NCBI RefSeq assembly: GCF_947489355.1
Contig: NZ_CANLDD010000001.1
Span: 124,001-188,000, forward strand
DNA length: 64,000 nt
Reading direction: 5' to 3'
Source: an uncultured Microbulbifer sp.
GTDB lineage: Bacteria; Pseudomonadota; Gammaproteobacteria; Pseudomonadales; Cellvibrionaceae
The notes below the pieces were generated by a model that was given only the letters and a program-made list of their open reading frames with translations, was not told where the DNA came from and did not search any database. This document shows positions 12,149-64,000 of this stretch, piece after piece. Position 1 is the stretch's first letter, and each line of letters starts with the position of its first letter. A program made the position numbers and the translations under genes.

Positions 12149-13714
12149 ATGCATGAGAAACAGAATTCGCACAGCTATAAGAAAAATTATCCCTCGATTT
12201 TCGCAGCTATGTATATTCGCATGTCTACAGATCATCAGAAATACTCAACCGAAAATCAAGAGAATGCCATACGAAAATACGCTAAGCGGCATAATCTCCA
12301 GATAGTTTCCCATTATGCTGATGAAGGAAAAAGTGGCCTGGACATCAATGGTCGTAAGGGGTTGCAACAACTCATTGCAGATGTGGAATCAGGTCAGAGC
12401 AAATTTGACACTATTCTCGTTCTGGATGTAACCCGCTGGGGTCGATTCCAGGACGCTGATGAAAGTGCTTATTATGAATATCGCTGCAGAAAATCTGGTA
12501 TTGAAGTTCGATACATTGCTGAGCAATTTGAGAATGATGGCAGCCCTATCTCAGACATTATCAAAGGAGTTAAACGGGCAATGGCTGGCGAGTACAGCCG
12601 CGAATTATCAGCCAAAGTCTTTGCGGGTCAATGCAACCTGATTGAAAAAGGCTTCCGCCAGGGCGGACCCGCCGGTTATGGTATCCGTCGCATGCTGACA
12701 GACGAACATGGCAATTCAAAGGGCTTGCTGAAACAAGGGGAGTATAAGTGTTTACAGACTGATAGAGTCATACTGGTACCTGGTCCCGATGCAGAAATCC
12801 AAGTCGTTTACTCCATCTATCAAGAATTTGTGGATGATCAGATGAGTGAGCGGGAGATTGCGGATCACCTTAACCAGCAGGGAATCACTACTGACCTGGG
12901 TCGCCAGTGGACGCGTGCAACTGTCCATCAGATCCTCACCAATGAAAAGTACATCGGTAACAACGTTTACAACCGCACCTCTTGCAAGTTGAAAAAGCAA
13001 CGTGTCAAAAACGACCCTGATATGTGGGTTCGATCAGATGGAGCTTTCGAGCCTATCATTGATCCACGCTATTTCTATATGGCCCAGGGTATTATCACTG
13101 AGAGAAGCCGAAAACTCTCTAGTGAGGTGTTGCTGGCCAAGCTACGTGAGCTTCATACTCAAAAGGGCTGGCTATCGGGCATTCTGATTGACGAAACTGA
13201 TGATATGCCCCCCAGTAGTGCCTATCGATACCGCTTTGGAAGCTTGATTCGGGCCTATACCATAATTGGCTATATCCCAGAACGAGATTATCGGTTTATA
13301 GAAATCAACCGCCATCTTCGAAAGATGCATCCCGATATAGTTGAGCACACCATGCAACATATCGAAAAGGTTGGTGGTTCTGTCTATCGAGAAGAGACCA
13401 CGGATCTCGTGATGGTGAATAATGAAATTAGTGTTTCCATCGTTATTTGCCGGTGCTTACAAACGGTCACAGGGAGAAATCTCTGGAAAATCCGCTTAGA
13501 TAAATCCCTAAAGCCTGATATTACCATTGCCGTCAGGATGGACACCAACAATGCAGATATCCTCGACTATTATCTGCTACCCAGCCTCGATATCCAAAAT
13601 CCCCTCTTCAAGCTTCGCAACATTAATGGCTTAGCTCTGGATGCTTATCATTTTAATAACCTTGAATACTTCTTCTATATGGCCAAGCGTGCCAATATTC
13701 AGGAGGCCGCATGA
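12149..13714 (+). CDS. Large serine recombinase
   Basis: Site-specific recombinase of the large serine type. Residues 18-165 are the resolvase catalytic domain, with YIRMS carrying the likely nucleophile Ser26 and an Arg two residues before it, followed by DEGKSGLDINGRKGL and the TRWGRF block. Residues about 190-290 fit the recombinase DNA-binding domain (GGPAGYGIRR, EREIADHLNQQGI, WTRATVHQILTNEKYIGNNVYNR is its core). The remaining 220 residues lack the Cys-pair zinc ribbon common in phage integrases of this class. The stop overlaps the next start as ATGA. A GGTGG lies shortly before ATG 12149. Probably catalyses movement of the island or inversion of a site within it. Confidence 0.9.
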   Translation: MHEKQNSHSYKKNYPSIFAAMYIRMSTDHQKYSTENQENAIRKYAKRHNLQIVSHYADEGKSGLDINGRKGLQQLIADVESGQSKFDTILVLDVTRWGRFQDADESAYYEYRCRKSGIEVRYIAEQFENDGSPISDIIKGVKRAMAGEYSRELSAKVFAGQCNLIEKGFRQGGPAGYGIRRMLTDEHGNSKGLLKQGEYKCLQTDRVILVPGPDAEIQVVYSIYQEFVDDQMSEREIADHLNQQGITTDLGRQWTRATVHQILTNEKYIGNNVYNRTSCKLKKQRVKNDPDMWVRSDGAFEPIIDPRYFYMAQGIITERSRKLSSEVLLAKLRELHTQKGWLSGILIDETDDMPPSSAYRYRFGSLIRAYTIIGYIPERDYRFIEINRHLRKMHPDIVEHTMQHIEKVGGSVYREETTDLVMVNNEISVSIVICRCLQTVTGRNLWKIRLDKSLKPDITIAVRMDTNNADILDYYLLPSLDIQNPLFKLRNINGLALDAYHFNNLEYFFYMAKRANIQEAA

Positions 13715-14613
13715 ACCAGGGAATTCGCAAATCTAAAATAAAAAATATCCGGATTCAGGATATACATATCTTGAATCCTAGATTCAGAAACAAGAAAGTT
13801 TTTGAAGAGATCACCGAGAATATCACCAAAGTAGGCTTGAAAAGACCAATCACTGTCACGCAATACACCTGGGCAAACGATAAGCCATATGTATTGGTTT
13901 GTGGCCAGGGGCGCCTTGAGGCGTATATGGCCTGTGGCCAATCGAAGATACCCGCTATGATCATCAAGGTTGAAGAGGAAGAGGCCTTAACCATGGGCTT
14001 GGTAGAGAATTTGGCGCGCCGCAAGCACACTTCCCTCGATCTCTTGAAAGGTATTCGGGTCCTAATGGAAAAGAGATATACCCCCAAGCAAATTGCACAA
14101 AAGACTGGGCTTACTGTGGAGTATGTGAAACCTATTGTTAAACTACTCAAAATGGGCGAAGAGAGGCTGCTCGCAGCCGTAGAGTCTAGTCAACTCCCCC
14201 TTGACATAGCAGTGAAGATCTCCGCCTCACCTGGAGAAGAGCAATTGGCACTACAAGAAGCCTATGAAAATGGCCAGCTAAGAGGAAAAAAATTCTATAT
14301 CGCCCGCAAGATTATCGAAGCCAGACGCAACAGAGGAAAGACTTTAGTTGATAATTCAGGACGCCAGAATACAGCAAAAAAAACCATGTCTGGCCGCGAT
14401 GTCCTGAAACTCTATAAAAAGGAAGCAGACCGAAGGCGTTTACTCATCAAGAAAGCAGAATTCGTTAACGGCCAACTTCATTTTATCGTTGAAGCACTAC
14501 GGACTCTCTTCCGTGAGGAAGAATTTGTCAATCTTCTTGAAATCGAAGCGCTGATGACATTGCCGAAATCCATATCCGATATAATAGAAAGGAAGGCGCT
14601 GGGGAATGACTGA
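13711..14613 (+). CDS. ParB-like protein 1 (ParB N-terminal domain plus HTH)
   Basis: A 300-aa ParB-family protein. Residues 15-110 form the ParB/Sulfiredoxin-like domain: IRIQDIHILNPRFR, then LVCGQGRLEAYMACG (in place of the usual G-E-R-R-x-x-A nucleotide-binding box), then VENLARRKHTSLD, which matches the ENLQR-type box. Residues 110-145 form the HTH (YTPKQIAQKTGLTVEYVKPIVKLL). The C-terminal half is basic and helical. The strong AGGAGG in front of ATG 13711 and the ATGA overlap with the recombinase indicate coupled translation. No ParA is nearby, so classic plasmid partition is unlikely. Confidence 0.85.
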   Translation: MNQGIRKSKIKNIRIQDIHILNPRFRNKKVFEEITENITKVGLKRPITVTQYTWANDKPYVLVCGQGRLEAYMACGQSKIPAMIIKVEEEEALTMGLVENLARRKHTSLDLLKGIRVLMEKRYTPKQIAQKTGLTVEYVKPIVKLLKMGEERLLAAVESSQLPLDIAVKISASPGEEQLALQEAYENGQLRGKKFYIARKIIEARRNRGKTLVDNSGRQNTAKKTMSGRDVLKLYKKEADRRRLLIKKAEFVNGQLHFIVEALRTLFREEEFVNLLEIEALMTLPKSISDIIERKALGND

Positions 14614-15538
14614 AAATAGTATAATTAGCATTGATGATGGCGGTGTTAAAATGGCTTTTATAAATTCAACCGTTGACTTGAGGATAGAACAACTGATTCC
14701 CACCAAGCCTATTCCAAAAACGTTACTTACCAGTAAAAAATATTTACAAATTCTCACATCAATAAAAGCAGTAGGTATTATTGAGCCCCCAGCCGTAATT
14801 GCAGAATCAAATGCCAGTGATTTATACATCATTCTCGACGGCCACTTAAGAATTGAAGCCCTTAAAGAAATCAATGAATCCAAGGTTACCTGCCTGATCT
14901 CCATCGATGATGAGTCTTTCACCTACAATAAACACATTAATCGGCTTACCGCTATTCAGGAACATCAGATGATTTTGAAGGCGATCAAACGCGGTGTTCC
15001 TGAAGATAAGATCGCCCGAGCACTCGGTGTTGACGTTAAAAGTATCATCCAAAAGAGAGACCTTCTGACCGGAATATGTCCAGAGGCAGTGAATCTATTG
15101 AAAGATAAACACGCACCAGCGGGTACTTTTCATATCCTGAAAAAAATGAAATCCATTCGCCAGATACAGGCTGCCACTCTAATGAATGATGCAGGGACGT
15201 ATTCAGTTTCCTATGCCAGAGTGCTCTGGACAGCCACACCGAAAAGCCAGCTTGTTAATCCGGACAGACCCAAGAAAATCAAAGGCCTAACCGAAGCGCA
15301 AATAGACCGTATGGAAAGCGAGATGGCCAACCTGGAGAAGGAATACCAGCTGGTAGAGGAGAGCTATGGCACTGATGTCCTGAACCTGACGCTCGCCAAG
15401 GGATATCTCACAAAACTGCTCGATAACGCCCAGATAGTCAACTATCTGGCACACCGGCAAACGGATATTTTTAATCAGCTCCAACGCATATCAGAGATCA
15501 ATTTTCTGGATGAATCTCTCTTGGGAAACCGGCAGTGA
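14606..15538 (+). CDS. ParB-like protein 2 (RepB C-terminal-like)
   Basis: A 310-aa second, divergent ParB-like protein, resembling proteins annotated as plasmid partitioning protein RepB C-terminal domain. Residues 25-110 contain a ParB-type fold with LYIILDGHLRIEAL, equivalent to the nucleotide-binding box. Residues 128-160 are an HTH (GVPEDKIARALGVDVKSIIQ). The region after 235 is a predicted coiled coil (AQIDRMESEMANLEKEYQLVEE), followed by a helical end. It overlaps the previous gene by 8 bp. An internal ATG (14651, MAFINSTVDLRIEQL) is a possible alternative start. Its coupling with a recombinase suggests a role in site recognition or synapsis, by inference. Confidence 0.8.
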   Translation: MTENSIISIDDGGVKMAFINSTVDLRIEQLIPTKPIPKTLLTSKKYLQILTSIKAVGIIEPPAVIAESNASDLYIILDGHLRIEALKEINESKVTCLISIDDESFTYNKHINRLTAIQEHQMILKAIKRGVPEDKIARALGVDVKSIIQKRDLLTGICPEAVNLLKDKHAPAGTFHILKKMKSIRQIQAATLMNDAGTYSVSYARVLWTATPKSQLVNPDRPKKIKGLTEAQIDRMESEMANLEKEYQLVEESYGTDVLNLTLAKGYLTKLLDNAQIVNYLAHRQTDIFNQLQRISEINFLDESLLGNRQ

Positions 15539-15895: not shown

Positions 15896-15972
15896 TGGCC
15901 CGCTCGGAGGGATTCGAACCCCCGACTTCCACCTCCGGAGGGTGGCGCTCTATCCAGCTGAGCTACGAGCGG
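15896..15972 (-). tRNA. tRNA-Arg (anticodon CCG)
   Basis: 77 nt on the minus strand. The acceptor stem is CCGCTCG/CGAGCGG with discriminator G and an encoded CCA. The D arm is GCTCAGCTGGATAGAGC, the anticodon stem CCACC/GGTGG surrounds CTCCGGA, giving anticodon CCG, and the T loop is TTCGAAT. Its 3' end points towards the recombinase island about 170-350 bp away. Confidence 0.96.
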
Positions 15973-19685: not shown

Positions 19686-19799
19686 AAAACAAGTATAGTG
19701 GGCCCAGGGTTTGAGCGAGCCCGGATGCTGTAGTTTAAGTTGTCGGCCCTTGGAGGAGGGCTACAATGAGTGAAACAAAGAGTTTCGGCCAACACTAAT

Positions 19800-20429
19800 T
19801 TAAAAAATTTCAGCAATAAGTACCGTTAAATCGATCTTACTAATACTGCCTCTCTTCAAAACTTCAATGGGGGGGTGAAAGGGGAACAGGTCGGGGGGGA
19901 GAATGGGTATATAGGTTTCTGTGTGCGGTGCGATAAGATCAATTTTTAGCCGTTTACATTCCCCTTGGGTTGAAAGTCGCTTGTTGACTAACAATTTTAC
20001 TTCTCGATATTTATTGGCAATTTCTATATCGGACAATTGATTTTTATTATCCATATCAGACCCTATGGCCCTTCCACTGCATGTCACTTGGATTTCAGCA
20101 ATATAGCGGAACTTCTTCGAAAAACGCTGATCAGCTCCCCAGATGTGACAAACACCAGGGCCGGGAGGGTGATGCGGAGAGAAACACACCGGGAACGAGA
20201 GTACATTCTGATCACCTTGACCTCCAATAGTTCCGTTGATACTAAATACCAAATCCTGACCAAAATCGCCAATCACATCGACGAAAGCAGTAAATTTGGT
20301 ATCTCCAGAAGGCTGAAAATCTGACCTATTCAATGTGTGTAATGTCCCACCGACATAAACAACCTCTGCGAGCGTTTTTCCTGCAAATACGGTGAGGAAC
20401 AAGGCCAGTAGAATTTTGTCAACTTTCAT
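19800..20429 (-). CDS. Array protein 1: secreted protein with hypervariable loop
   Basis: A 209-aa protein of no recognised family. A signal peptide ends KTLA, followed by EVVYVGGTLHTLN. Residues about 22-73 and 104-168 are almost identical to the four neighbours. Residues 74-103 (window V1) are unique, with two cysteines framing FSPHHPPGPGV, so a disulfide-closed loop is plausible. Residues about 170-188 (V2, Pro-rich: PILPPDLFPFHPP) are also variable, although V2 is nearly shared with array protein 4. Two further Cys (VTCSG, GECK) are constant. It is the last unit if the array is co-transcribed leftwards. AAAGGA lies about ten bases before the ATG. Confidence 0.88.
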   Translation of the reverse strand: MKVDKILLALFLTVFAGKTLAEVVYVGGTLHTLNRSDFQPSGDTKFTAFVDVIGDFGQDLVFSINGTIGGQGDQNVLSFPVCFSPHHPPGPGVCHIWGADQRFSKKFRYIAEIQVTCSGRAIGSDMDNKNQLSDIEIANKYREVKLLVNKRLSTQGECKRLKIDLIAPHTETYIPILPPDLFPFHPPIEVLKRGSISKIDLTVLIAEIF

Positions 20430-20531
20430 TAATGGTAGTCCTTTAAGTTGATCTAATAGGCTAACAGCTCGTTGGGCTATGAGGTATTTTTATAATCGCT
20501 TTAGAATATATGGTGCACAAACCACGAGTTA

Positions 20532-20590
20532 CTGCCAACTCTAGTGTTCAACAAGCCTGATCAAGCAGCGCACTGGTCGGCTGTTGGCAG
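20532..20590. other. Array hairpin, unit 1
   Basis: CTGCCAAC (20532) pairs with GTTGGCAG (20583), 8 bp. An inner CTAGTG/CACTGG adds 6 bp with one wobble. It lies 100-160 bp upstream of array gene 1. Confidence 0.6.
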
Positions 20591-20745
20591 CTCCTCTCTA
20601 TCCCTGTCTCGATTGGTTGACTGTTTGCCGACAACAAATCAACCAGATACGCTGCTTTCTTTCAAACCCTCAAACACCAGATTCGGTTATCACTCTCGGA
20701 GGAGGGTTGCAATGTGTGAAACAAAGAGTTTCGGCTAACACTAAC

Positions 20746-21375
20746 TTAAAAAATTTCAGCAATAAGTACTGTTAAATCGATCTTACTAACACTGCCTCTC
20801 TCCAAAACTTCAATTCCGGGCCAAAAGGGGTCGGGGTGAGTGCGTGTGGGTATATAAGTTTCTGTGTGCGGTGCGATAAGATCAATTTTTAGCTGTTTAC
20901 ATTTCCCTTGGGTTGAAAGTCGCCTGTTGACTAACAATTTTACTTCTCGATATTTATTGGCAATTTCTATATCGGACAATTGGTTTTTATTATCCATATC
21001 GGACCCTATGGCCCTTCCACTACATATCACTTGGATTTCAGCAATATAACGGAACTCCTTTGAAAAACGTCTAGCGCCTATCCAGACTTGACAACCACGA
21101 AAGTAGGGATCAGGGTTACCCCGATCATGGCACACCGGGATCGAGAGTACCTTCTGGTTACCTTGACCTCCAATAGTTCCGTTGATATTAAATACCAAAT
21201 CCTGGCCAAAATCGCCAATCACATCAACGAAAGCAGTAAATTTGGTATCTCCAGAAGGTTGAAAATCTGACCTATTCAACGTGTGTAATGCCCCACCGAC
21301 ATAAACAACCTCTGCAAGTGTTTTTCCTGTAAATACGATAAGGAACAAGGCCAGTAAAATCTTGCCAACTTTCAT
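20746..21375 (-). CDS. Array protein 2: secreted protein with hypervariable loop
   Basis: Paralogue of 209 aa with the same signal peptide and scaffold. V1 reads C-HDRGNPDPYFRG-C followed by QVWIGAR, unlike any neighbour. V2 is PTRTHPDPFWPG. In the scaffold, single changes are seen (for example VFNINGT and QVICSGRAI). The upstream leader differs slightly from unit 1 and contains the compensatory change in the intergenic hairpin. Confidence 0.88.
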   Translation of the reverse strand: MKVGKILLALFLIVFTGKTLAEVVYVGGALHTLNRSDFQPSGDTKFTAFVDVIGDFGQDLVFNINGTIGGQGNQKVLSIPVCHDRGNPDPYFRGCQVWIGARRFSKEFRYIAEIQVICSGRAIGSDMDNKNQLSDIEIANKYREVKLLVNRRLSTQGKCKQLKIDLIAPHTETYIPTRTHPDPFWPGIEVLERGSVSKIDLTVLIAEIF

Positions 21376-21477
21376 TAATGTTAGTCCTTTAAGTGGATCT
21401 AATAGGTTAACAGTTTGTTAGCCTATTAGGTATTTTTATAATCGCTTTAGAATAGATGATGTGCAAACCACGAGTTA

Positions 21478-21536
21478 CTGTCAACTCTAGTGTTCAACAA
21501 GCCTGATCAAGCAGCGCACTGGTCGGCTGTTGACAA
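21478..21536. other. Array hairpin, unit 2
   Basis: CTGTCAAC pairs with GTTGACAA over 7 bp. Relative to unit 1 both partners of one pair changed (C-G to T-A), so pairing is kept. Confidence 0.6.
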
Positions 21537-21695
21537 CTCCTCTCTATCACTGTCTCGATAGGTTGGTTGACTGTTTGCGGACAACAAATCAACCAGATAC
21601 GCTGCTTGCTTTTAAACCCTCAAACACCAGATTCGGTTATCACTCTCGGAGGAAGGTTGCAATGTGTGAAACAAAGAGTTTCAGCTAACACTAAC

Positions 21696-22334
21696 TTAAA
21701 AAATTTCAGCAATAAGCACTGTTAAATCGAACTTACTAATGCTGCCTCTCTCCAAAACCTCAGGGAAGAAACCGAAAGATGGAGCCCAGATTTCAGGGAC
21801 TGTGGTGGGAGGAGGGGGTATATAGGTTTCTGTGTGCGGTGCGATAAGATCAATTTTTAACTGTTTACATTCCCCTTGGGTTGAAAGTCGTTTGTCGACT
21901 AACAATTTTACTTCTCGATATTTATTGGCAATTTCTATATCGGACAATTGATTCTTATTATCCATATCAGACCCTATGGCCCTGCCACTGCATGTCACTT
22001 GGATTTCAGCAATGTAGCGGAACTCCTTTGAAAAACGTCTACGATATGCCCATGAAGAACGACATCGGTCGGTGTAGTAGGTACTTAAACATACCGGGGT
22101 ATTGACTACACGCTGATCACCTTGACCTCCAATAGTTCCGTTGATACTAAATACCAAATCCTGGCCAAAATCGCCAATCACATCGACGAAAGCAGTAAAT
22201 TTGGTATCTCCAGAACGTTGAAAATCTGACCTATTCAACGTGTGTAATGCCCCACCGACATAAACAACCTCTGCGAGTGTTTTTCCTGCAAATACGGTGA
22301 GGAACAAGGCCAGTAGAGTTTTGCCAACTTTCAT
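21696..22334 (-). CDS. Array protein 3: secreted protein with hypervariable loop
   Basis: Paralogue of 212 aa. V1 is short, C-LSTYYTDR-C, followed by RSSWAYRR. V2 is the longest of the five (PPPPTTVPEIWAPSFGFF). The scaffold has QRSGDTKF where the others have QPSGDTKF, and VDKRL where the others have VNKRL or VNRRL. The Pro-rich V2 suggests an extended exposed segment. Same AAAGGA ribosome binding site as unit 1. Confidence 0.88.
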   Translation of the reverse strand: MKVGKTLLALFLTVFAGKTLAEVVYVGGALHTLNRSDFQRSGDTKFTAFVDVIGDFGQDLVFSINGTIGGQGDQRVVNTPVCLSTYYTDRCRSSWAYRRRFSKEFRYIAEIQVTCSGRAIGSDMDNKNQLSDIEIANKYREVKLLVDKRLSTQGECKQLKIDLIAPHTETYIPPPPTTVPEIWAPSFGFFPEVLERGSISKFDLTVLIAEIF

Positions 22335-22436
22335 TAATGGTAGTCCTTTAAGTTGATCTAATAGGCTAACAGCTCGTTGGGCTATGAGGTATTTTTAAAA
22401 TCGCTTTAGAATATATGGTGCATAAACCACGAGTTA

Positions 22437-22495
22437 CTGCCAACTCTAGTGTTCAACAAACCTGATCAAGCAGCGCACTGGTCGGCTGTTGGCAG
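22437..22495. other. Array hairpin, unit 3
   Basis: CTGCCAAC/GTTGGCAG, as in unit 1, with the same inner stem. Confidence 0.6.
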
Positions 22496-22654
22496 CTCCT
22501 CTCTATCCCTGTCTCGATTGGTTGGTTGATTTTTTGCCGACAACAAATCAACCAGATACGCTGCTTTCTTTCAAACCTTCAAACACCAGATTCGGTTATC
22601 ACTCTCGGTGGAAGGTTGCAATGTGTGAAACAAAGAGTTTCGGCTAACACTAAC

Positions 22655-23293
22655 TTAAAAAATTTCAGCAATAAGTACTGTTAAATTGATCTTACTAATA
22701 CTGCCTCTCTCCAAAACTTCAATGGGGGGGTGAAAGGGGACCAGGTCGGGGGGGAAAGTGGGTATATAGGTTTCTGTGTGCGGTGCGATAAGATCGATTT
22801 TCAGCTGTTTACATTTGCCTTGGGTTGAAAGTCGCCTGTTGACTAACAATTTTACTTCTCGATATTTATTGGCAATTTCTATATCGGACAATTGATTTTT
22901 ATTATCCATATCGGACCCTATGGCCCTGCCACTGCATGTTACTTGGATTTCAGCAATAAAGCGGAATTCCTTGCTAAATTCTTTAACATATCCCCAACTT
23001 TGTATACAACCACCATAATAGGGGCCAACAACGACACCCATATTAAGACACCTCGGTATCTTGAGTACATTCTGGTCACCTAGACCTCCAATAGTTCCGT
23101 TGATACTAAATACCAAATCTTGACCATAATCGCCAATCACATCGACGAAAGCAGTAAATTTGGTATCTCCAGAAGGTTGAAAATCTGACCTATTCAACGT
23201 GTGTAATGCCCCACCGACATAGACAACCTCTGCAAGTGTTTTTCCTACAAATACGGTGAGAAACAAGGCCAGTAAAGTTTTACCAATTTTCAT
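22655..23293 (-). CDS. Array protein 4: secreted protein with hypervariable loop
   Basis: Paralogue of 212 aa. V1 is the longest: C-LNMGVVVGPYYGG-C followed by IQSWGYVKE. V2 (PTFPPDLVPFHPP) is almost the same as in array protein 1, while V1 is entirely different, so the two windows assort independently between units. This is the clearest sign of recombination or gene conversion inside the array. The 5' leader contains a small duplication of the ribosome-binding segment (CCTTTAAGT twice). Confidence 0.88.
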   Translation of the reverse strand: MKIGKTLLALFLTVFVGKTLAEVVYVGGALHTLNRSDFQPSGDTKFTAFVDVIGDYGQDLVFSINGTIGGLGDQNVLKIPRCLNMGVVVGPYYGGCIQSWGYVKEFSKEFRFIAEIQVTCSGRAIGSDMDNKNQLSDIEIANKYREVKLLVNRRLSTQGKCKQLKIDLIAPHTETYIPTFPPDLVPFHPPIEVLERGSISKINLTVLIAEIF

Positions 23294-23414
23294 TAATGAT
23301 AGTCCTTTAAGTTAATGGTATTCCTTTAAGTGGAGCTAATAGGCTAACAGTTTGTTGGGCTATAAGGCATTTTTATAATCACTTTGGAATAGATGATGCG
23401 CAAACCACAAGTTA

Positions 23415-23473
23415 CTATCAACTCTACTGTTCAACAAGCCTGATCAAGCAGCGCACTGGTCGGCAGTTGGCAG
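23415..23473. other. Array hairpin, unit 4
   Basis: CTATCAACT/AGTTGGCAG: eight of nine positions pair if one T-G wobble is allowed. The stem is extended by one pair, and the inner stem is interrupted by one mismatch. Confidence 0.5.
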
Positions 23474-23632
23474 CTCCTCTCTATCCCTGTTTCGATTGAT
23501 TGGTTGACTGTTTGACGACAACAAATCAACCCCTTACGCTGCTTTCTTTCAAGCCCTCAAGCCCCTGATTCGGTTATCATTCTCGTAGGAGGCTTGCAAT
23601 GAGTGAAACAAAAAGTTTCGGCTAGCACTAAC

Positions 23633-24247
23633 TTAAAAAATTTCAGCAATAAGTATCGTTAAATCGATCTTACTAATACTGCCTCTCAGCAAAAGTTCAC
23701 TACTTGGGTGAGAGGGGTCGTCGAGGGGAGGGGATATATAGGTTTCTGTGTGCGGTGCGATAAGATCAATTTTTAGCTGTTTACATTTTCCTTGGGTTGA
23801 AAGTCGCTTGTTGACTAACAATTTTACTTCTCGATATTTATTGGCAATTTCTATATCGGACAATTCATTTTTATTATCCATATCAGACCCTATGGCCCTG
23901 CCACTGCATGTCACTTGGATTTCAGCAATGTAACGGAACTGGTTTGAAAAAATTCTACTATATCCCAAAAATACACAATGGTCACCTTCAGGATAACAAA
24001 AAAGCACAGGGGCGTTGATTACACTCTGATCACCTTGACCTCCAATAGTTCCGTTGATACTAAATATCAAATCCTGACCAAAATCACCAATCACATCGAC
24101 GAAAGCAGTAAATTTGGTATCTCCAGAAGGTTGAAAATCTGACATATTCAATGTGTGTAATGTCCCACCGACATAAACAACCTCTGCAAGTGTTTTTCCT
24201 ACAAATACGGTGAGGAACAAGGCCAGTAAAGTTTTACCAATTTTCAT
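23633..24247 (-). CDS. Array protein 5: secreted protein with hypervariable loop
   Basis: Paralogue of 204 aa and the most upstream unit for minus-strand transcription. In V1 the first Cys is shifted (PVLF-C-YPEGDH-C-VFLGYSR), so the loop is only six residues. V2 is SPPLDDPSHPSS and the following EVLERG becomes ELLLRG. The leader carries the same small duplication as unit 4. The scaffold also has LNMSDF and NKNELSD changes. Confidence 0.88.
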   Translation of the reverse strand: MKIGKTLLALFLTVFVGKTLAEVVYVGGTLHTLNMSDFQPSGDTKFTAFVDVIGDFGQDLIFSINGTIGGQGDQSVINAPVLFCYPEGDHCVFLGYSRIFSNQFRYIAEIQVTCSGRAIGSDMDNKNELSDIEIANKYREVKLLVNKRLSTQGKCKQLKIDLIAPHTETYISPPLDDPSHPSSELLLRGSISKIDLTILIAEIF

Positions 24248-24368
24248 TAATGATAGTCCTTTAAGTTAATGGTATTCCTTTAAGTGGAGCTAATAGGCTA
24301 ACAGCTCGTTGGGCTATGCGGTATTTTTATAATCACTTTAGAATATATGGTGCACAAACCACGAGTTA

Positions 24369-24427
24369 CTGTCAACTCTAGTGCTCAACAAGCCTGATCA
24401 AGCAGCGCACTGGTCGGCTGTTGGCAA
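24369..24427. other. Array hairpin, unit 5
   Basis: CTGTCAAC/GTTGGCAA pairs over 7 bp with one T-G wobble, intermediate between units 1 and 2. Confidence 0.55.
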
Positions 24428-24579
24428 CTCCTCTCTATCCCTGTCTCGATTGGTTGGTTGACTGTTTGACGACAACATATCAATCAGATACGCTGCTTTC
24501 TTTCAAATCCTTAAACACCAGAATTGGTTATAACTCTGAAGCTTTCAGCGGGAACACAGAACAGAATCGTGAGTATCCA

Positions 24580-56655: not shown

Positions 56656-59319
56656 TTAATCTACTTTGTAGGATAAATCGCCGGATGCGCTCCCCGATAC
56701 CTTAATGGCTTTGACCGTTTCGCCTTTCGCCATTTTATCCAGACACACACTGGCTAATTCAGGCAGCAGGGTCCTGTTGAGAATAATCTCGATATTACGC
56801 GCACCCGTATCAGTCTCATGACACCGGGCGACGATATTGATCAGCACATCCTCATCAAACGAAAAGGAAGCACCATAATGCTCCCCTATGCGTTTGCCGA
56901 TCTTGCCTAGATGGAGTTTGCAGATGGTCATCAAATTCTCATCGTCCAGAGGATAATAGGCAATCACATTGGAACGACCGAGAAATGCCGGCTTGAATTT
57001 CTGTAAAAGATGAGAGCGGATATTATCCAGTAACACATCCGGCTCCGGCCTTTCCTCTACCTGGTTAAAGATGGCCCTGATCGCTTCTTCACCGGCATTG
57101 GAGGTCATGATAATAACGGTATTCTTGAAATCGATATCCCGGCCTTCACCATCTTTTATGATGCCTTTATCAAACAGATTGTAGAAAATATCCTGCACAC
57201 CGGGATGCGCTTTCTCCATCTCATCTAATAAAATGACCGAATAAGGCTTGCGCCGTGCAGCTTCGGTCAAAGCACCACCCTCGCCGTATCCAACATATCC
57301 GGGGGGAGAGCCGAGTAGCATGGAAACCTTATGCTCTTCTTTAAACTCGGCCATATTAATGGTTGTGACATTCTGCTCACCGCCAAAGAGCTCATCTGCC
57401 AGGGCCAGTGCGGTCTCGGTTTTACCTACACCGCTGGTTCCACAGAACATAAATACGCCCACAGGCTTGCGGGGATCGGTGAGACCGGCGCGAGCGGTGT
57501 GAATGGATTGCGCTATCGCTTCAATCGCATGAGGCTGCCCGATAATGCGTTTGTTTAAGCGCTCGGCCAGAGTCTTCACCGCGATGATCTCATCGCTAAC
57601 CATCTTGCCAAGCGGAATTCCCGTCCAGTTGGCAACCACCGCAGCAATGGCTTGCTCATCCACAGCGGGCTGTATCAAAGGGGTATTGCCCTGAACATCC
57701 AACAGGTCCGTAGTGAGAGATTTAAGCTGATGCTGACAATCTGCCAGTGTAGCGGTATCCGGTGCTCCATCACTGCTCTGGATATTCATAAACTCTGAGT
57801 CAACCTGATCGCGTAGGTCCTGGATTTTCCCGACCAGTTCACGCTCTTTGACCAGCTGCTGATCCAGAGAAATCAAACGCTGTTGTTCCGTTTCCTTAAG
57901 TGCGCTCAGCTCGGCCAACTGCTCTTCATATCCTCCCAGAGCTGCGTTTTCACGCTCCAGCTTGCTCAGGGTTGTTTCAGTGCGGTCGATCGTATTGCGT
58001 GCATCTTCAATAGAGCCAGGTGTAGAAGACTGACTTAGCGCAACCCGGGCACAGGCGGTATCCAACAGGCTGACAGATTTATCCGGTAGCTGACGTCCGG
58101 GAATATAGCGGTGTGATAGTTTGACAGAAGCGATAATAGCTTCATCCAGGATACGCACATTGTGATGCTGCTCCAAGCTGGTGGCAATACCGCGCATCAT
58201 ATCAATGGCATCCCCTTCGCCAGGCTCCTCTACTTTCACAACCTGGAAGCGCCTGGTCAGTGCGGGGTCGCGTTCGAAATACTTTTTATATTCCGCCCAG
58301 GTGGTCGCCGCAAGTGTTCGGAGTTCTCCTCTGGCCAAAGCCGGCTTTAACAGGTTGGCCGCATCCCCCTGTCCCTCTTTCCCACCTGCACCTATCATGG
58401 TATGGGCTTCATCGATAAACAAAATGATCGGCGTTGCCGAAGCACGAACCTCTTCAATCACAGACTTCAGGCGGTTTTCGAACTCACCTTTGACACTGGC
58501 TCCGGCCTGTAAGAGACCGAGATCCAGAGTGCGCACCGCCACCCCCCTGAGCGGTGCGGGTACATCGCCGTTGGCAATTCGCAGGGCAAAACCCTCAACC
58601 ACTGCGGTTTTACCCACACCAGCCTCACCGGTCAATATCGGATTGTTCTGTCGGCGGCGTGTCAAAATATCAATACACTGGCGGATTTCCTCATCCCGGC
58701 CAAGGACCGGATCGACTTCCCCTTGTTTGGCCCTTTCGGTCAAATTAATGGTGTATTTATCCAGCGCCGGTGCTTTGCTCGCCACCACGGCCGCTGCAGT
58801 AATGCCCCCATCCGTTGTCACGCCCGCTACTATATGGCTGGATTCGCCACTTTGGCCAAACATGACTCGCGCTGTTTCTCGAAGAGACTCGGGCGCGATG
58901 CTTTTGAGTTCCGGGCAGGATTCAAGTAACTGCCTTCGAGAAGTTTCCTCCAACATCTGGGCGGCCAGCAAATGTCCCGAGCCAATAGCGTGATACCCAT
59001 AGTCAATAGAGGCGAGCATCCAGGCATTTTTAGTGACTTCCACAATAGTCGGCGACAATGCCGGGGGGCGACTGCTGCCAGTGCGAAACTCTGCAATGGC
59101 AGTTGCCAACTGCTTGGCTAACTTTTCCGGAATAACGCCATGCTTTTTTAACAACAGGTAGAGATCCGTATCAGACTGATCCAAAAGCTTCAGCATCCAG
59201 TGCTCAAGCTCTACATTGTATTGATTTTGTGCAAGGCACAGTCCGGCAGCGCCTTCAAGGGAATCGCGCATATATGGTGTCATGTTATCCACTAACCGTT
59301 TAAGGTCGATATGTATCAC
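56656..59319 (-). CDS. clpV: T6SS ATPase ClpV (TssH)
   Basis: AAA+ unfoldase that disassembles the contracted T6SS sheath (TssB/TssC). 887 aa with two ATPase modules: Walker A GEAGVGKTAVVEG near residue 215 with Walker B ILFIDEAHTMIG, and GTSGVGKTETALALADEL near 605 with VILLDEMEKAHPGV. The Clp N-terminal repeat domain covers residues 1-150, and a long coiled-coil M domain lies at about 420-530 (LSKLERENAALGGYEEQL). A GTG start follows AGGA ten bases upstream. Last gene of the operon tssC-like, tssE, tssF, tssG, clpV. Confidence 0.95.
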   Translation of the reverse strand: MIHIDLKRLVDNMTPYMRDSLEGAAGLCLAQNQYNVELEHWMLKLLDQSDTDLYLLLKKHGVIPEKLAKQLATAIAEFRTGSSRPPALSPTIVEVTKNAWMLASIDYGYHAIGSGHLLAAQMLEETSRRQLLESCPELKSIAPESLRETARVMFGQSGESSHIVAGVTTDGGITAAAVVASKAPALDKYTINLTERAKQGEVDPVLGRDEEIRQCIDILTRRRQNNPILTGEAGVGKTAVVEGFALRIANGDVPAPLRGVAVRTLDLGLLQAGASVKGEFENRLKSVIEEVRASATPIILFIDEAHTMIGAGGKEGQGDAANLLKPALARGELRTLAATTWAEYKKYFERDPALTRRFQVVKVEEPGEGDAIDMMRGIATSLEQHHNVRILDEAIIASVKLSHRYIPGRQLPDKSVSLLDTACARVALSQSSTPGSIEDARNTIDRTETTLSKLERENAALGGYEEQLAELSALKETEQQRLISLDQQLVKERELVGKIQDLRDQVDSEFMNIQSSDGAPDTATLADCQHQLKSLTTDLLDVQGNTPLIQPAVDEQAIAAVVANWTGIPLGKMVSDEIIAVKTLAERLNKRIIGQPHAIEAIAQSIHTARAGLTDPRKPVGVFMFCGTSGVGKTETALALADELFGGEQNVTTINMAEFKEEHKVSMLLGSPPGYVGYGEGGALTEAARRKPYSVILLDEMEKAHPGVQDIFYNLFDKGIIKDGEGRDIDFKNTVIIMTSNAGEEAIRAIFNQVEERPEPDVLLDNIRSHLLQKFKPAFLGRSNVIAYYPLDDENLMTICKLHLGKIGKRIGEHYGASFSFDEDVLINIVARCHETDTGARNIEIILNRTLLPELASVCLDKMAKGETVKAIKVSGSASGDLSYKVD

Positions 59320-59340
59320 GGTCTAAAATTCCTTTTAAAA

Positions 59341-60489
59341 TTAATGGGTAAGTAAATATTCTGCAGTGGGTAAAGCTTCATCCGGGGATATGTTTTCGGC
59401 ACTCAACGTGATTTCTACGAGTTCGACAGTTTCCTGGTCACTGACCATATGGGTATTCCAGCCCAGCAGGGGAGCATGTTCAGGTTTCCTGTTTAGCTGT
59501 GCCGGTGGTACCTGATCTGTAGGTAGGGTGACTAAGAGTTCAAAATCCAGTTCGATTCCCGCACTGAATTTGATAAATGCCTTTAGCGCCTCCAGCTCTT
59601 GGGTGCCGGGGGCGATGGTCATAAACTGCTCATACGCCATTGGCTCAATAACCACCTGAAATTTATTTTGTGCCTGGAAGCAGTGCGTACCGAGAATGGT
59701 GTTTTTCCCCAGGCAATTATTTACTCCATCAGGCGCGCTTATGCAGGGTAAACGACACAGAATATCTCTTGGCAGCGCATCCCATTGACCTTGAAACTGC
59801 TCAATAGTGACAGACAGGCCAAAGTAATTTTTAATCATACTGGTCAGCGCAGCAACAGAACAACGCGCTTGGCTGAAGTGGCCTGCCATGCCCAGAAGAG
59901 CCTCATCGGGTACGGGTATACGGTAACGCATTTCGCTGGTGCCCAACCCGGCCAAAGCGGCTATACCCTGAGTGAAGAGGTCCGGTTCCCTTTCATTGCG
60001 CAATCGCTGCCGTTCATAGTTTACCGGTAGTTGGTATTTGGACCAGGCTTGATAAAGTAGCGAGATATGACGGTGATTGAACAGGTTGAGAAAATCCCGC
60101 AGGGCGGTGTTATTTTCCCGGAGTTCCTTCTGCACAAGCTCCGTAAGATAGTAGGGCATAACACCCTGACTGCCAATCAGCCCGGTAAACCCCACTTCCA
60201 TCTGCCACTGGTTCGACAGGTTGTCCTGAAGGTCACTTTCGTCAACCGGCTTCCTCTCCAGGCTCAGTACATCTGAACCGACAAAAGAAAGTCCACACTG
60301 GGCACTAAAACGAATAAACTCTTTGGAGGGCGGTGCCGCACCGGCAATGGCTGCGTTACAGAAATCATCATCGGCCATAGTTACAGCCCGCTCTACAAGA
60401 CGTACAGCCTGGTAGAAGTCAAAGCTATAGGGCTCTCGACTCAGCCGCTCTATTACAGTAACGCTTTTTCTCCGGCACGAGGTGGCCAT
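59341..60489 (-). CDS. tssG: T6SS baseplate protein TssG
   Basis: A 382-aa baseplate wedge subunit (ImpH/VasB family) acting with TssF, TssE and TssK. Family pattern: PYSFDFYQAVRLVERAV near residue 20, EFIRFSAQCGLSFVGSDV-like FIRFSAQCGLSFVGSD, VGFTGLIGSQGVMPYYLTEL (the typical G-L-x-G-x-x-G-x-LP block), FLNLFNHRHISLLYQAWSKY, and GHFSQARCSVAALTSMIKNY later. Its start overlaps the end of tssF by about 37 bp. 21 bp separate it from clpV. Confidence 0.93.
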   Translation of the reverse strand: MATSCRRKSVTVIERLSREPYSFDFYQAVRLVERAVTMADDDFCNAAIAGAAPPSKEFIRFSAQCGLSFVGSDVLSLERKPVDESDLQDNLSNQWQMEVGFTGLIGSQGVMPYYLTELVQKELRENNTALRDFLNLFNHRHISLLYQAWSKYQLPVNYERQRLRNEREPDLFTQGIAALAGLGTSEMRYRIPVPDEALLGMAGHFSQARCSVAALTSMIKNYFGLSVTIEQFQGQWDALPRDILCRLPCISAPDGVNNCLGKNTILGTHCFQAQNKFQVVIEPMAYEQFMTIAPGTQELEALKAFIKFSAGIELDFELLVTLPTDQVPPAQLNRKPEHAPLLGWNTHMVSDQETVELVEITLSAENISPDEALPTAEYLLTH

Positions 60490-62282
60490 CTCTTCAGTTC
60501 TCCATCTCTGCCGTTTATTGTGGCAATTAATTTTGTAAAAGAGTTAATGGAACAATAGAGGCCAAGGAAGCGTTCGATAATACTGGCAAACAAGACCGGG
60601 CTGGTTCCTGTCAGCATCATTGAATCCAGCTCAATTTCAACCTCGGTACCCCGACAGAGTACAATGCTCTGATCTATCTGAATTGGAGCGGTGACTGGTT
60701 TGGTATTCAGCCTTAATAGTGACTCTATCAAGTTCCTTATACTCGCAGAATCACGAAAGTCATATAGTCTGAATATCTCCTTGAGAGCATCACAACCCTG
60801 GGTTCCGCAAAGAGACAGATGATTCAAGTTCAAGTGAGAAATGAGTCGCCAATAGCCCCGCTCCCGCCTCGGCGGCCGCAGTGTCGCACTCGGTGCGATA
60901 ACACAGCTAATGCGGCTTGCCGGTAGATCCCCATCTACCACTTCCAGGTAAGGTTGCGCATTCCCGCTGGGGAGCTTTTTGGGAAGATTCCTGTTGCAGC
61001 AGGTTAACTTGATATCCAGTGTCTGATCACTAATCCGGTGCGGGTTAAAATTCAGGTCCACCAAGCTAATATCGACTTCGGAGGCATACTCATTACGATG
61101 CTCCCCTTCAATAACCTCACGCCGTCGGCTAAACCAGAAAGCAGACTGTTGCGCATGGTGTTGACTGTGTTTTATGCCATAAAATGGTCGATACCTGGTC
61201 GCCTCCCCATTTCCATCCGTTGCGGTAACCTCATCGATAGAGTAAATTTCCAATCCATCGTTTCGGCGGGCATCGGGTACTATTTGATAATGATACTGCG
61301 CGTGGCTTAGCGGAATAGGGTCTGCACTTTGTGTGAACAGATTCACCACCGGCGTACAGCCGAGTGCAAACATACCTGGGACCAATTGTTTTTCTAATTC
61401 TTCGTGAGTTTCCGAGAGGTAAAAATAGAGCGTGAGGGAGTCTTCAAAACTCTCGTTGATTGCCCTTTGGAGGTTTTTGATATCCAGGAACAGAAATTTT
61501 TCCGGAAAGGCAAAATACTCGGTGAGCAGGCGATAGCCAATAAATGCTGTGTCGGGATACGGCAGTAGACCCTGATCCTCATCCAGTCCCACTTGCCCGA
61601 TCTCATCCGGGGATAGAAAAGTCGGCTTGGGATCAGTCTCACCGTGCGCCACTACCAGTTTTACACACTTTGTCAACAGCAAGTCATACAAGCTGTAAAC
61701 ATGTGTAGGCTGCCCCCGCAGGAAGAAACGCAAACATCCCGGCTTCATTTCTGCAAAGCTCAAATCCGGACTCAGGGTTTTTAAGGTTAACTTGAGAACC
61801 GCATTGGCGCCCTGGACATCATTACAGCCAGGTGCAATAAAAGGCCTGGGCATTAAGCTGACACTTACCGGCTGGAACGGGCTTATTTCCACGGGGTAGC
61901 AGGTGGTAAACCGGCAGACCTGCCCCTGAAAGGGCTCGCTTTCCAAAAGTGTCCTGGCCTCCACCGGCGTTATGGCGTCTAGATCCTCATCTGGCTCAAA
62001 CTGCACAATGGCGCAGGAGGGAATCGGGCGCAAATAGTGTGGATAGAGGGTTTCCAGCATAGCATCTGTCAGTTCCGGAAAGTCGTCACTGAGTTTTTGC
62101 TGAACCCTCGCATTCATGTAGGCAAAGCCCGATAGCAGACGCCCCACCAAGGGATCATCTACAGTCTCCGTATCCAGTTGTAACCTGGAGGCCGCTGCGG
62201 GGTGCATGCGGGCAAATTCAGCGGCTGTCTGCTGGATAAAGGCCAACTCGCGCTCGTAGAGATCGATTAAACGTTCACTCAT
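60453..62282 (-). CDS. tssF: T6SS baseplate protein TssF
   Basis: A 609-aa baseplate subunit (ImpG/VasA family). The start MSERLIDLYERELAFIQQTA and EFARMHPAAASRLQLDTETV, then DPLVGRLLSGFAYMNARVQQ and LTDAMLETLYPHYLRPIPSC are the typical TssF N terminus. PALRFYLRGQ-like LRFFLRGQPTHVYSLYDLLL and the C-terminal YCSINSFTKLIATINGRDGE also fit. Start and the tssE stop overlap (TAATG). It forms the wedge with TssG and binds TssE. Confidence 0.95.
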   Translation of the reverse strand: MSERLIDLYERELAFIQQTAAEFARMHPAAASRLQLDTETVDDPLVGRLLSGFAYMNARVQQKLSDDFPELTDAMLETLYPHYLRPIPSCAIVQFEPDEDLDAITPVEARTLLESEPFQGQVCRFTTCYPVEISPFQPVSVSLMPRPFIAPGCNDVQGANAVLKLTLKTLSPDLSFAEMKPGCLRFFLRGQPTHVYSLYDLLLTKCVKLVVAHGETDPKPTFLSPDEIGQVGLDEDQGLLPYPDTAFIGYRLLTEYFAFPEKFLFLDIKNLQRAINESFEDSLTLYFYLSETHEELEKQLVPGMFALGCTPVVNLFTQSADPIPLSHAQYHYQIVPDARRNDGLEIYSIDEVTATDGNGEATRYRPFYGIKHSQHHAQQSAFWFSRRREVIEGEHRNEYASEVDISLVDLNFNPHRISDQTLDIKLTCCNRNLPKKLPSGNAQPYLEVVDGDLPASRISCVIAPSATLRPPRRERGYWRLISHLNLNHLSLCGTQGCDALKEIFRLYDFRDSASIRNLIESLLRLNTKPVTAPIQIDQSIVLCRGTEVEIELDSMMLTGTSPVLFASIIERFLGLYCSINSFTKLIATINGRDGELKRWPPRAGEKALL

Positions 62283-62755
62283 TATATAATCTCGGACACG
62301 TCGACCATTTGGGTCACGGGATTCAGGGCGGAATCAAAAACAATGACCTCCGAGGCCGGGTTGACATATAGCACCGCTTCGACACGAAACCGTATACTCG
62401 GGTCTTCCATATCTATCTTTTCCTGTGTCGTCACCTTGACAGAGCGAATCCTCGGCTCAAAGTGCACAATGGTTTTCTCAATATCACGACAGAACAGTTT
62501 TCTGCTACCCAGAGAAGATAGATTAATCGTGGATAAATCCGGCAGGCCGTAATTAATATTGGAGCCCTGCAGGTGCGTCAGGCTATCTGCTGCAGAAATA
62601 CAGCGGTAGCGCGTATTAAATAAATACTCGAGATCCCGCCGCACGCCTTCACGCAACTGCCGCAATATTTGGTGTGACTGGTGCATATCCAGTTTGCTCG
62701 AGGATTCCAGCAGTCGATCCAAAATCGGTGCCAGCAGACGCTTTTCTTTTGCCAT
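62282..62755 (-). CDS. tssE: T6SS baseplate protein TssE
   Basis: A 157-aa gp25-like lysozyme-fold baseplate protein. Motifs: LLAPILDRLLES near the start, LREGVRRDLEYLFNTRYRC (the typical RRDLE-x-LLNTR block), NYGLPDLSTINLSS, IEKTIVHFEPRIRSVKV and the C-terminal IRFRVEAVLYV. ATG 62755 (MAKEKRLLAP) is preferred; an alternative start eight codons upstream would overlap the preceding gene. Located between the tssC-like gene and tssF. Confidence 0.93.
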   Translation of the reverse strand: MAKEKRLLAPILDRLLESSSKLDMHQSHQILRQLREGVRRDLEYLFNTRYRCISAADSLTHLQGSNINYGLPDLSTINLSSLGSRKLFCRDIEKTIVHFEPRIRSVKVTTQEKIDMEDPSIRFRVEAVLYVNPASEVIVFDSALNPVTQMVDVSEII

Positions 62756-62759
62756 CGAA

Positions 62760-64000
62760 CTAGGCAGCTCCCACCCCAATCGTTGCCAGCGCTGTGGTCA
62801 GTTTCAACTCTGATACAAGATGATCGACGGTATAGTGGCTCTTCAAGTGAATCACGCTTTGATAGCTACCGGCTTTACCCGGTTCATCGGCCACCCTGAC
62901 CCGGGCTTCACGCAGCGGGTAGCGCGCGAGCATTTCCCAGGAAAGGTCGTCCCGCCCAGTTGTATAGCGATCCAGCCAATGCTGCAATTGGCGCTCGCAA
63001 TCCGCCGCATTCATATAAGCGCCCACTTTGTCCCGGATCATTACCTTGATGTAATGGGCAAAACGCGATGCACAGAGTATCTGCTGCAACATTGAACTGA
63101 TCCTGGCATTTGCAGTGGCGGCCTTGGAAGTATACTGCTTGGCTTTTTGCAGCGAGGGAACACTGTTAAAGGCACAATAGGGCGTATCGTAACAATGGCT
63201 CAGACAAACAAAACCCAACTCAGAGAGATCCCGTTCGACAAAATCGGTAACCAGAATGGAGGTGGACATACGCACCGTGCCCGGGCGACTGTCGGGCTTG
63301 TAAGGCACAACCGGTAACTGGGTCATCAGTCCACCGCCCAAGTGGTCTCGGGCAACGCCACGAATATGGGAAAACCAGCCGACCTCACTGAATTCCCGCA
63401 GCAATACCGCACCCAGGGCAAAGCAGGCATTGCCCCACAAGTAGTGCCGGCTATGCAATGCCGCAACCTGCTCTTCAAACCGCAAGCCACGGTATAGTGA
63501 AAAATCAACACTATAGGGTTTCCGCATCAACACCTGTGGCAGAGTCACTGCGATAAAACGGCTGTCTTCCAACTCGCGAAGACTGTTCCAGCGGATATAT
63601 TCACCCTGACGAAAAACTTCAGAAAACCGGATGGGCTTTGCCAGGTCATCAAAGTGATCCACACCGAACAGTTGCGGGCTGGCCGCACAGACAAAAGGGG
63701 CAAATGCGGCGGCCGCTGTATGCGCTATTCCTTGGAGGGTAAAGACATCATCGTACGGATGTTCCGGCAAAGGGCGGTGGGAAATATAGTAATCCCCCAG
63801 TAAAAGGCCAAAAGGTTCTCCGCCCGGAGTACCGAATTCCTCATTATATACAAGGTGGAAAAGACCGGACTGATCAAAATCCGAGGCCCGCTCCACATCC
63901 TTGCTGAGATCCCTCCAGTTCACATCCAGCAACTTTATCTTGATATTGTCCGAATGGGGCGTATTGAAAACCAACATGGATAGGCCGCGCCAACTGGCCT
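62760..64000 (-). CDS. tssC: T6SS sheath protein TssC-like (5' end outside window)
   Basis: The open frame runs off the right edge, and the first codons in view, ASWRGLSMLVFNT, are internal to the TssC/VipB family, so the N-terminal part is missing here. Family blocks: NIKIKLLDVNWRDLSKDVER, EFGTPGGEPFGLLLGDYYIS, AAAFAPFVCAASPQLFGVDH, YIRWNSLRELEDSRFIAVTLPQ in parts, RFAHYIKVMIRDKVGAYMNA. Divergence from canonical TssC in the middle and at the C terminus, and the order C, E, F, G, ClpV, suggest the ImpD-type second TssC of imp loci. Confidence 0.9.
   Translation of the reverse strand, partial: ASWRGLSMLVFNTPHSDNIKIKLLDVNWRDLSKDVERASDFDQSGLFHLVYNEEFGTPGGEPFGLLLGDYYISHRPLPEHPYDDVFTLQGIAHTAAAAFAPFVCAASPQLFGVDHFDDLAKPIRFSEVFRQGEYIRWNSLRELEDSRFIAVTLPQVLMRKPYSVDFSLYRGLRFEEQVAALHSRHYLWGNACFALGAVLLREFSEVGWFSHIRGVARDHLGGGLMTQLPVVPYKPDSRPGTVRMSTSILVTDFVERDLSELGFVCLSHCYDTPYCAFNSVPSLQKAKQYTSKAATANARISSMLQQILCASRFAHYIKVMIRDKVGAYMNAADCERQLQHWLDRYTTGRDDLSWEMLARYPLREARVRVADEPGKAGSYQSVIHLKSHYTVDHLVSELKLTTALATIGVGAA

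Follow-up and report, generated by a model that had tools for sequence, protein, structure and literature searches.

The window analyzed here, a 64,000-nucleotide stretch of the genome of a marine Microbulbifer sp. (contig NZ_CANLDD010000001.1, positions 124,001 to 188,000), carries a tandem array of five genes for secreted paralogous proteins that have a nearly constant scaffold and two copy-specific loops, V1 and V2. The open reading frames (ORFs) lie head to tail on the minus strand between positions 19800 and 24247, and code for proteins of 204–212 amino acids (aa), all five of which have starts judged by eye to resemble signal peptides: unit 1 (19800–20429, 209 aa, predicted to belong to a tumor necrosis factor (TNF)-fold family), unit 2 (20746–21375, 209 aa), unit 3 (21696–22334, 212 aa), unit 4 (22655–23293, 212 aa), and unit 5 (23633–24247, 204 aa). 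The repeat units, of about 950 bp, are in register, with spacings of 943–978 bp (946–959 bp over gene starts). V1 extends from about aa 75 to aa 103–109, depending on the copy (20112–20207, 21055–21153, 22023–22112, 22967–23071, and 23939–24025 on the minus strand in units 1 to 5), and V2 covers about aa 172–195, again depending on the copy (19854–19907, 20800–20850, 21750–21818, 22709–22762, and 23687–23734, minus strand). The genome is a 264-contig draft; all five units are on a single contig of 422,677 bases, and they differ from one another by several per cent.

Nucleotide p-distances, pooled over the 10 unit pairs, are 0.434 for V1 and 0.382 for V2, compared with 0.062 and 0.059 for the N-terminal and C-terminal coding parts of the scaffold, 0.072 for the last 57 columns, and 0.090 for upstream non-coding DNA. 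V1 differs about five times more than the neighboring non-coding DNA, with the V1 values depending on the alignment of nearly unrelated letters. In every unit, V1 contains two Cys residues that frame 6–13 residues. The array, repeats, and p-distances agree with an initial annotation, made from the sequence alone, that had described five tandem secreted paralogues with a constant scaffold and variable loops, and the Cys pair and the residue strings quoted there are seen in each copy. Its remark that units 1 and 4 have a nearly common V2 and different V1 is borne out by p-distances of 0.059 and 0.407, respectively. Its location of the array stands, with the genes now placed on the minus strand and the loop bounds corrected to those given above; its statement that flanking and intergenic DNA is far less variable also stands, with the correction that an element derived from an insertion sequence (IS) lies within the intergenic DNA.

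The predicted structure of unit 2 has a TNF/C1q-like jelly-roll fold, as judged from the top-50 lists of structural comparisons. In the model, V1 is located between strands 5 and 6, and V2 forms a long Pro-rich loop before the last strand. Both loops are predicted to project from one end of the sandwich, and two further conserved Cys residues are placed at turns of its opposite end. The trimer is the usual state for this fold. The TNF-like jelly roll that characterizes the lectins BC2L-CN and PLTL is found in the predicted structure, with 4–9% identity to TNF-like lectins in the structural alignments; BC2L-CN and PLTL are absent among the PDB sequence matches of profiles A1 (E ≤ 1) and A4 (E ≤ 5). 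Profiles or single proteins compared with solved structures gave weak or coiled-coil-type matches only, the best of which is a designed coiled coil (E = 2e-5). No C1q or TNF Pfam model was matched by the five window proteins (E ≤ 1) or by 18 family members (E ≤ 0.1), no Pfam family fits either set (weak matches only), three members had no match in NCBIfam or PHROGs, and PADLOC (E ≤ 0.1) returned 0 families for the unit 2 protein and the five core proteins described below. The initial proposal that the layout belongs to no named family is thus upheld for the models and members searched. An azurin/cupredoxin fold, indicated by profile matches with E values of 0.011–0.69, was dropped because it is in neither top-50 list, an absence that is not an exclusion.

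On the same contig, at C1:48–59k, genes for proteins of 418, 197, 650, 314, and 678 aa (the core) adjoin three further paralogues (C1:48.7–51.3k); one more member is located at C1:381k. Thalassomonas sp. RHCl1 has core orthologues in the same order, with 35–53% identity, followed by a 14-member array. Family members follow the 650-aa protein in all seven loci found, and the arrays beside the core contain 3 members in the Microbulbifer genome analyzed here, 14 in RHCl1, and, in further genomes of the Thalassomonas family, 15 in G855, 13 in G807, at least 10 in G889 (where the stretch ends inside the array), 6 in G979 (including some weakly matched members), and 4 in G814. The 314-, 650-, and 197-aa proteins are present in 7/7 loci; the 678-aa protein is seen in 5/7, the other two being cut at piece borders there; and the 418-aa protein is present in 6/7, with the G979 slot holding another large protein (no blastp match at 1e-3). 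Most core proteins have starts that resemble signal peptides or membrane anchors, and some have lipobox-like motifs (judged by eye). Their matches in Pfam, NCBIfam, and PHROGs are weak and partly to coiled-coil families, those in Pfam and NCBIfam always falling under curated cut-offs. The third paralogue beside the Microbulbifer core (C1:51k; L012 6633–7368) has a broken reading frame. In RHCl1, the core and array lie between genes that read by eye as glmU and glmS (L080 4571–5932, L081 4102–12158), and four genes that read, likewise by eye, as a Tn7-like tnsABCD set directly follow the glmS-like gene. A second small secreted family, of about 156–162 aa, occurs at array ends (L081 1336–2440, L094 1706–2176), and also, in shortened form, close to the core in Microbulbifer (L079 7345–7689).

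The family is rare. Profile searches found it in 4/48 Microbulbifer genomes (including the one analyzed here), in 3/390 genomes of an order sample (all Microbulbifer), and in 1/369 genomes of a class sample (the one analyzed here); the 650-aa protein was found in 6/196 genomes of the Thalassomonas family, RHCl1 included, and in 1/48 Microbulbifer and 1/369 class-sample genomes, in both cases the one analyzed here. A scan of named genomes with the alignment recovered Thalassomonas sp. RHCl1 (two loci) and Microbulbifer variabilis, whose member is identical in sequence to one from a same-genus genome; the scan with unit 2 alone found no relative. Microbulbifer belongs to the Cellvibrionales and Thalassomonas to the Alteromonadales. 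A phage or mobile-element home of the family was rejected: tblastn searches of 72,556 plasmid and 50,697 phage records with unit 2 and the 650-aa protein returned nothing, and one scan of viral contigs gave no relative. In a tree of 83 members, the five window genes form one clade (support 1.0) among loop-bearing members of the Thalassomonas type, and the remaining copies in the same genome, like the single genes from other Microbulbifer, are placed elsewhere, positions that suggest separate acquisitions. Three other Microbulbifer genomes (L009, L010, L011) have one short member each, without the core, and these single short members group in the tree with the last gene of Thalassomonas arrays. 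V1 bounds were set in 38 of 65 members, 6 of which have no real loop; all 32 loop-bearing members examined have the V1 Cys pair, and V1 is enriched in Trp, Tyr, and His.

Comparison of orthologues among species of the Thalassomonas family reveals that V1 is conserved within each orthologue group. We found 16 groups, and the orthologues lie in the same order across four related genomes. V1 bounds could be set in nine groups, two of which are short types without Cys; the seven Cys-loop groups comprise 19 pairs from three species, with pairs within one group not being independent. V1 is identical at 539 of 583 aa (92%), with a synonymous divergence (dS) of 0.41, a nonsynonymous divergence (dN) of 0.04, and dN/dS of about 0.1; strictly between the Cys residues, 151 of 169 aa are identical, with dN/dS of about 0.15. 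Adding a fourth species gives 765 identical residues of 850 (28 pairs). The orthologue scaffold has a dS of 0.424 and a dN of 0.025, and V1 is thus somewhat less constrained than the scaffold and far from free. Seven groups were left out, including the long-looped L080:6804 group, in which the Cys-framed loop reads identically in all four species. For the window paralogues, V1 is identical at 132 of 355 aa at a scaffold dS of only 0.138, and relative to scaffold dS V1 has changed about 45 times as much as it has among orthologues; V1 synonymous divergence is 0.65, an alignment-limited value.

Two histories fit the divergence of the paralogue loops: strong selection soon after duplication, or the retention of old loops with recombination homogenizing the rest. 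The latter route has modest support from the pairwise homoplasy index (PHI)-type test, in which 2 of 2000 permutations were as low for 45 sites (14 of them inside poorly alignable loops), from the common V2 and different V1 of units 1 and 4, and from the high V1 synonymous divergence; upstream DNA alone (12 sites) gave 76 of 2000. Of the duplication and conversion proposed in the initial annotation, the duplicated family is confirmed, and recombination among the units is modestly supported.

We favor, at roughly even odds, a reading in which the five proteins are secreted, probably trimeric TNF/C1q-fold binding heads, each with a fixed loop set, and the array is a repertoire. Specifically, the exported proteins would adopt the predicted jelly roll and probably form trimers; V1 and V2, placed together at one end of the sandwich, would form a binding face, with the Cys pair stapling V1 through a disulfide; and each gene copy would supply one fixed loop set and hence one specificity, most likely lectin-like or for some other surface recognition. 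In the hosts that have them, the exported core proteins would provide a shared assembly, display, or delivery apparatus, to which the window array would be a satellite set; the array would have grown by tandem duplication of the ~950-bp unit together with an element resembling a miniature inverted-repeat transposable element (MITE), with some recombination among copies. The initial annotation had likewise proposed a recognition family, and the predicted fold, one used for binding and found in bacterial lectins and in recognition proteins of animals, is in line with this, with binding itself being what the model suggests. More tentatively, and with somewhat less than even probability, the core and arrays together would constitute an undescribed recognition system: an exported multi-protein machine that would display or deliver a genome-encoded set of interchangeable TNF-fold heads with disulfide-stapled, copy-specific loops, and that would have spread among Gammaproteobacteria of marine habitats, with satellite arrays such as the window array as extensions. 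Its fold and likely activity would be of a known kind, and the combination of core and array may be entirely new.

Several observations weigh against binding heads. A jelly roll alone shows no function, a phage baseplate domain is the top row in both structural lists (rows within 1 Z being tied), and the confidence of the model in V2 is low (predicted local distance difference test, pLDDT, 53–59). Many members, among them short types adjoining the same core, have no V1 insert, and V1 is therefore not required for the general role of the family. About 85 kb separate the window array from the core, and single members without the core occur in other Microbulbifer. The PHI-type test without the loops (31 or 28 sites) gave 47, 19, 74, and 78 of 2000, depending on settings. 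No orthologue of the window array was found, so V1 fixity is seen only in other species.

The strongest competing reading is a structural one, in which the proteins would be pilin- or matrix-like subunits that assemble with the core proteins in a set order, and the loops would be subunit contacts or assembly codes; we consider this a serious alternative, at about one half of the weight given to binding heads. It would account for loops that are kept in orthologues and differ from one paralogue to the next, for the orthologue order kept in four related genomes, for the coiled-coil character of the core proteins (weak matches), and for an E-x-F motif at the C-terminal end of 73/83 members, which resembles a docking tail and would serve either reading. 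The window array is less easily accommodated: it is an expansion of one subtype at a distance from the core, and five near-identical bodies with unrelated loops are not obviously needed in one assembly. The Trp, Tyr, and His enrichment of V1 fits binding, but fits contacts too. Alternatively, and rather improbably, the proteins would be targeting heads of a toxin-like or antagonism complex, with the core delivering and each paralogue aiming at a different target cell. Consistent with this proposal are the several exported core proteins, with their helical or coiled-coil parts, and the recognition of glycans by the TNF-like domains of BC2L-C and PLTL (PMC12914763); against it, the core proteins tested had no match to a toxin-domain, secretion-system, or defense model.

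Ongoing loop change for antigenic variation or phage decoys, as raised in the initial annotation, would explain how V1 can be extremely divergent on a little-changed scaffold, and some recombination among units, but is improbable given the orthologues: V1 is kept per orthologue in seven groups from 3–4 species, nearly as constrained as the scaffold, and its low dN/dS in the Thalassomonas relatives is the outcome that the annotation itself had set against diversification. As for phage decoys as such and competition, two of the roles that it had listed, the results speak neither for nor against them. The reverse transcriptase (RT) that it had suggested looking for was not found. An RVT_1 search of the draft genome gave one match over the cut-off, a truncated 154-aa ORF that we take, from its motifs, to be of group II-intron type, and a second, sub-threshold match to a broken fragment; no RT of the diversity-generating retroelement (DGR) type was found. 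With regard to the template repeats that it had also named, the V1 DNA of unit 4 matches only itself in the genome, and tblastn with the whole unit 2 protein recovered only the five units and distant relatives. A DGR is not supported by these results or by the conserved orthologue loops. Finally, chance or relaxed selection, in which V1 and V2 are unconstrained loops that drifted, would suit likely surface regions and the low model confidence of V2, but is very improbable in view of the constraint on V1 among orthologues, the Cys pair in all 32 loop-bearing members examined, and a V1 divergence far above that of neighboring non-coding DNA.

The intergenic DNA between units 2 and 3 (21376–21695, minus strand) is repeated upstream of every unit, the copy upstream of unit 5 being at 24267–24537 (minus strand; G000 C1:148267–148537). 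Comparison with the rest of the genome reveals that it contains a MITE-like element (approximately 21469–21647, minus strand) made of the left end (about 85 bp) and the right end (about 77 bp) of a transposase-bearing IS, joined across a 12-bp spacer. An IS with both ends is located at C4:107.4–108.8k, where its transposase frame, presumably of the IS256/mutator type, is interrupted; other contigs also have ends of the IS or fragments of them. The MITE-like element was amplified along with the unit and may have served as homology for unequal exchange. Integron-like cassettes were rejected, since the intergenic repeat consists of the joined ends of an IS of the same genome. Promoter and terminator scans of the region were near chance (11 promoter-like sites with 11.0 expected; 5 terminator-like sites with 3.9 expected). 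The IS end upstream of unit 2 (21456–21484) contains TTGACA, a −35-like match that would let the element supply a promoter but is of a kind found at chance level in this region. Elsewhere in the window, genes judged by eye include a recombinase-like and two ParB-like genes near a tRNA gene (12149–15538; tRNA, 15899–15972), reminiscent of a mobile element, and ClpV-, TssG-, TssF-, and TssE-like genes (56656–63977), suggestive of a segment of a type VI secretion cluster.

Jelly-roll binding proteins encoded as tandem repertoires are known from animals (the C1q proteins of oysters), and searches of open-licence PMC papers found no description of a bacterial TNF/C1q-like tandem array or of the core gene set. 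If the favored reading is correct, a bacterial counterpart tied to an exported core without a recognized domain would be new recognition machinery, and the ligands of the heads, the specificity of each loop set, and the origin of unrelated loops amid similar scaffolds and non-coding DNA become testable questions; the family could also serve as a natural stapled-loop binding scaffold. DGR targets resemble the array in having a variable loop on a constant scaffold, and differ in each of the respects given above (RT, a V1 copy for unit 4, and orthologue conservation). The C-terminal domain of Pgp3 and the C1q-like tips of the BclA type are matches in structure only, with no sequence similarity detected. 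The N-terminal domain of BC2L-C and PLTL have a fold like that predicted here, with no sequence match detectable by profile; in the parts of PMC12914763 considered, PLTL is a TNF-like lectin, BC2L-CN is trimeric, PLTL is hexameric with intermolecular disulfides, and neither is said to have a tandem array, a Cys-framed loop, or a set of partner genes. In the parts of PMC6835236 considered, bivalve C1q genes form tandem arrays under diversifying selection, for which a lectin-like repertoire has been proposed. The bivalve arrays differ from the array described here in being eukaryotic, in that selection acts on a limited set of sites and loops are not replaced, and in that no associated core genes are mentioned in those parts; the likeness is one of layout and fold, both being tandem sets of secreted jelly-roll proteins that combine a constrained fold with diversified sites.

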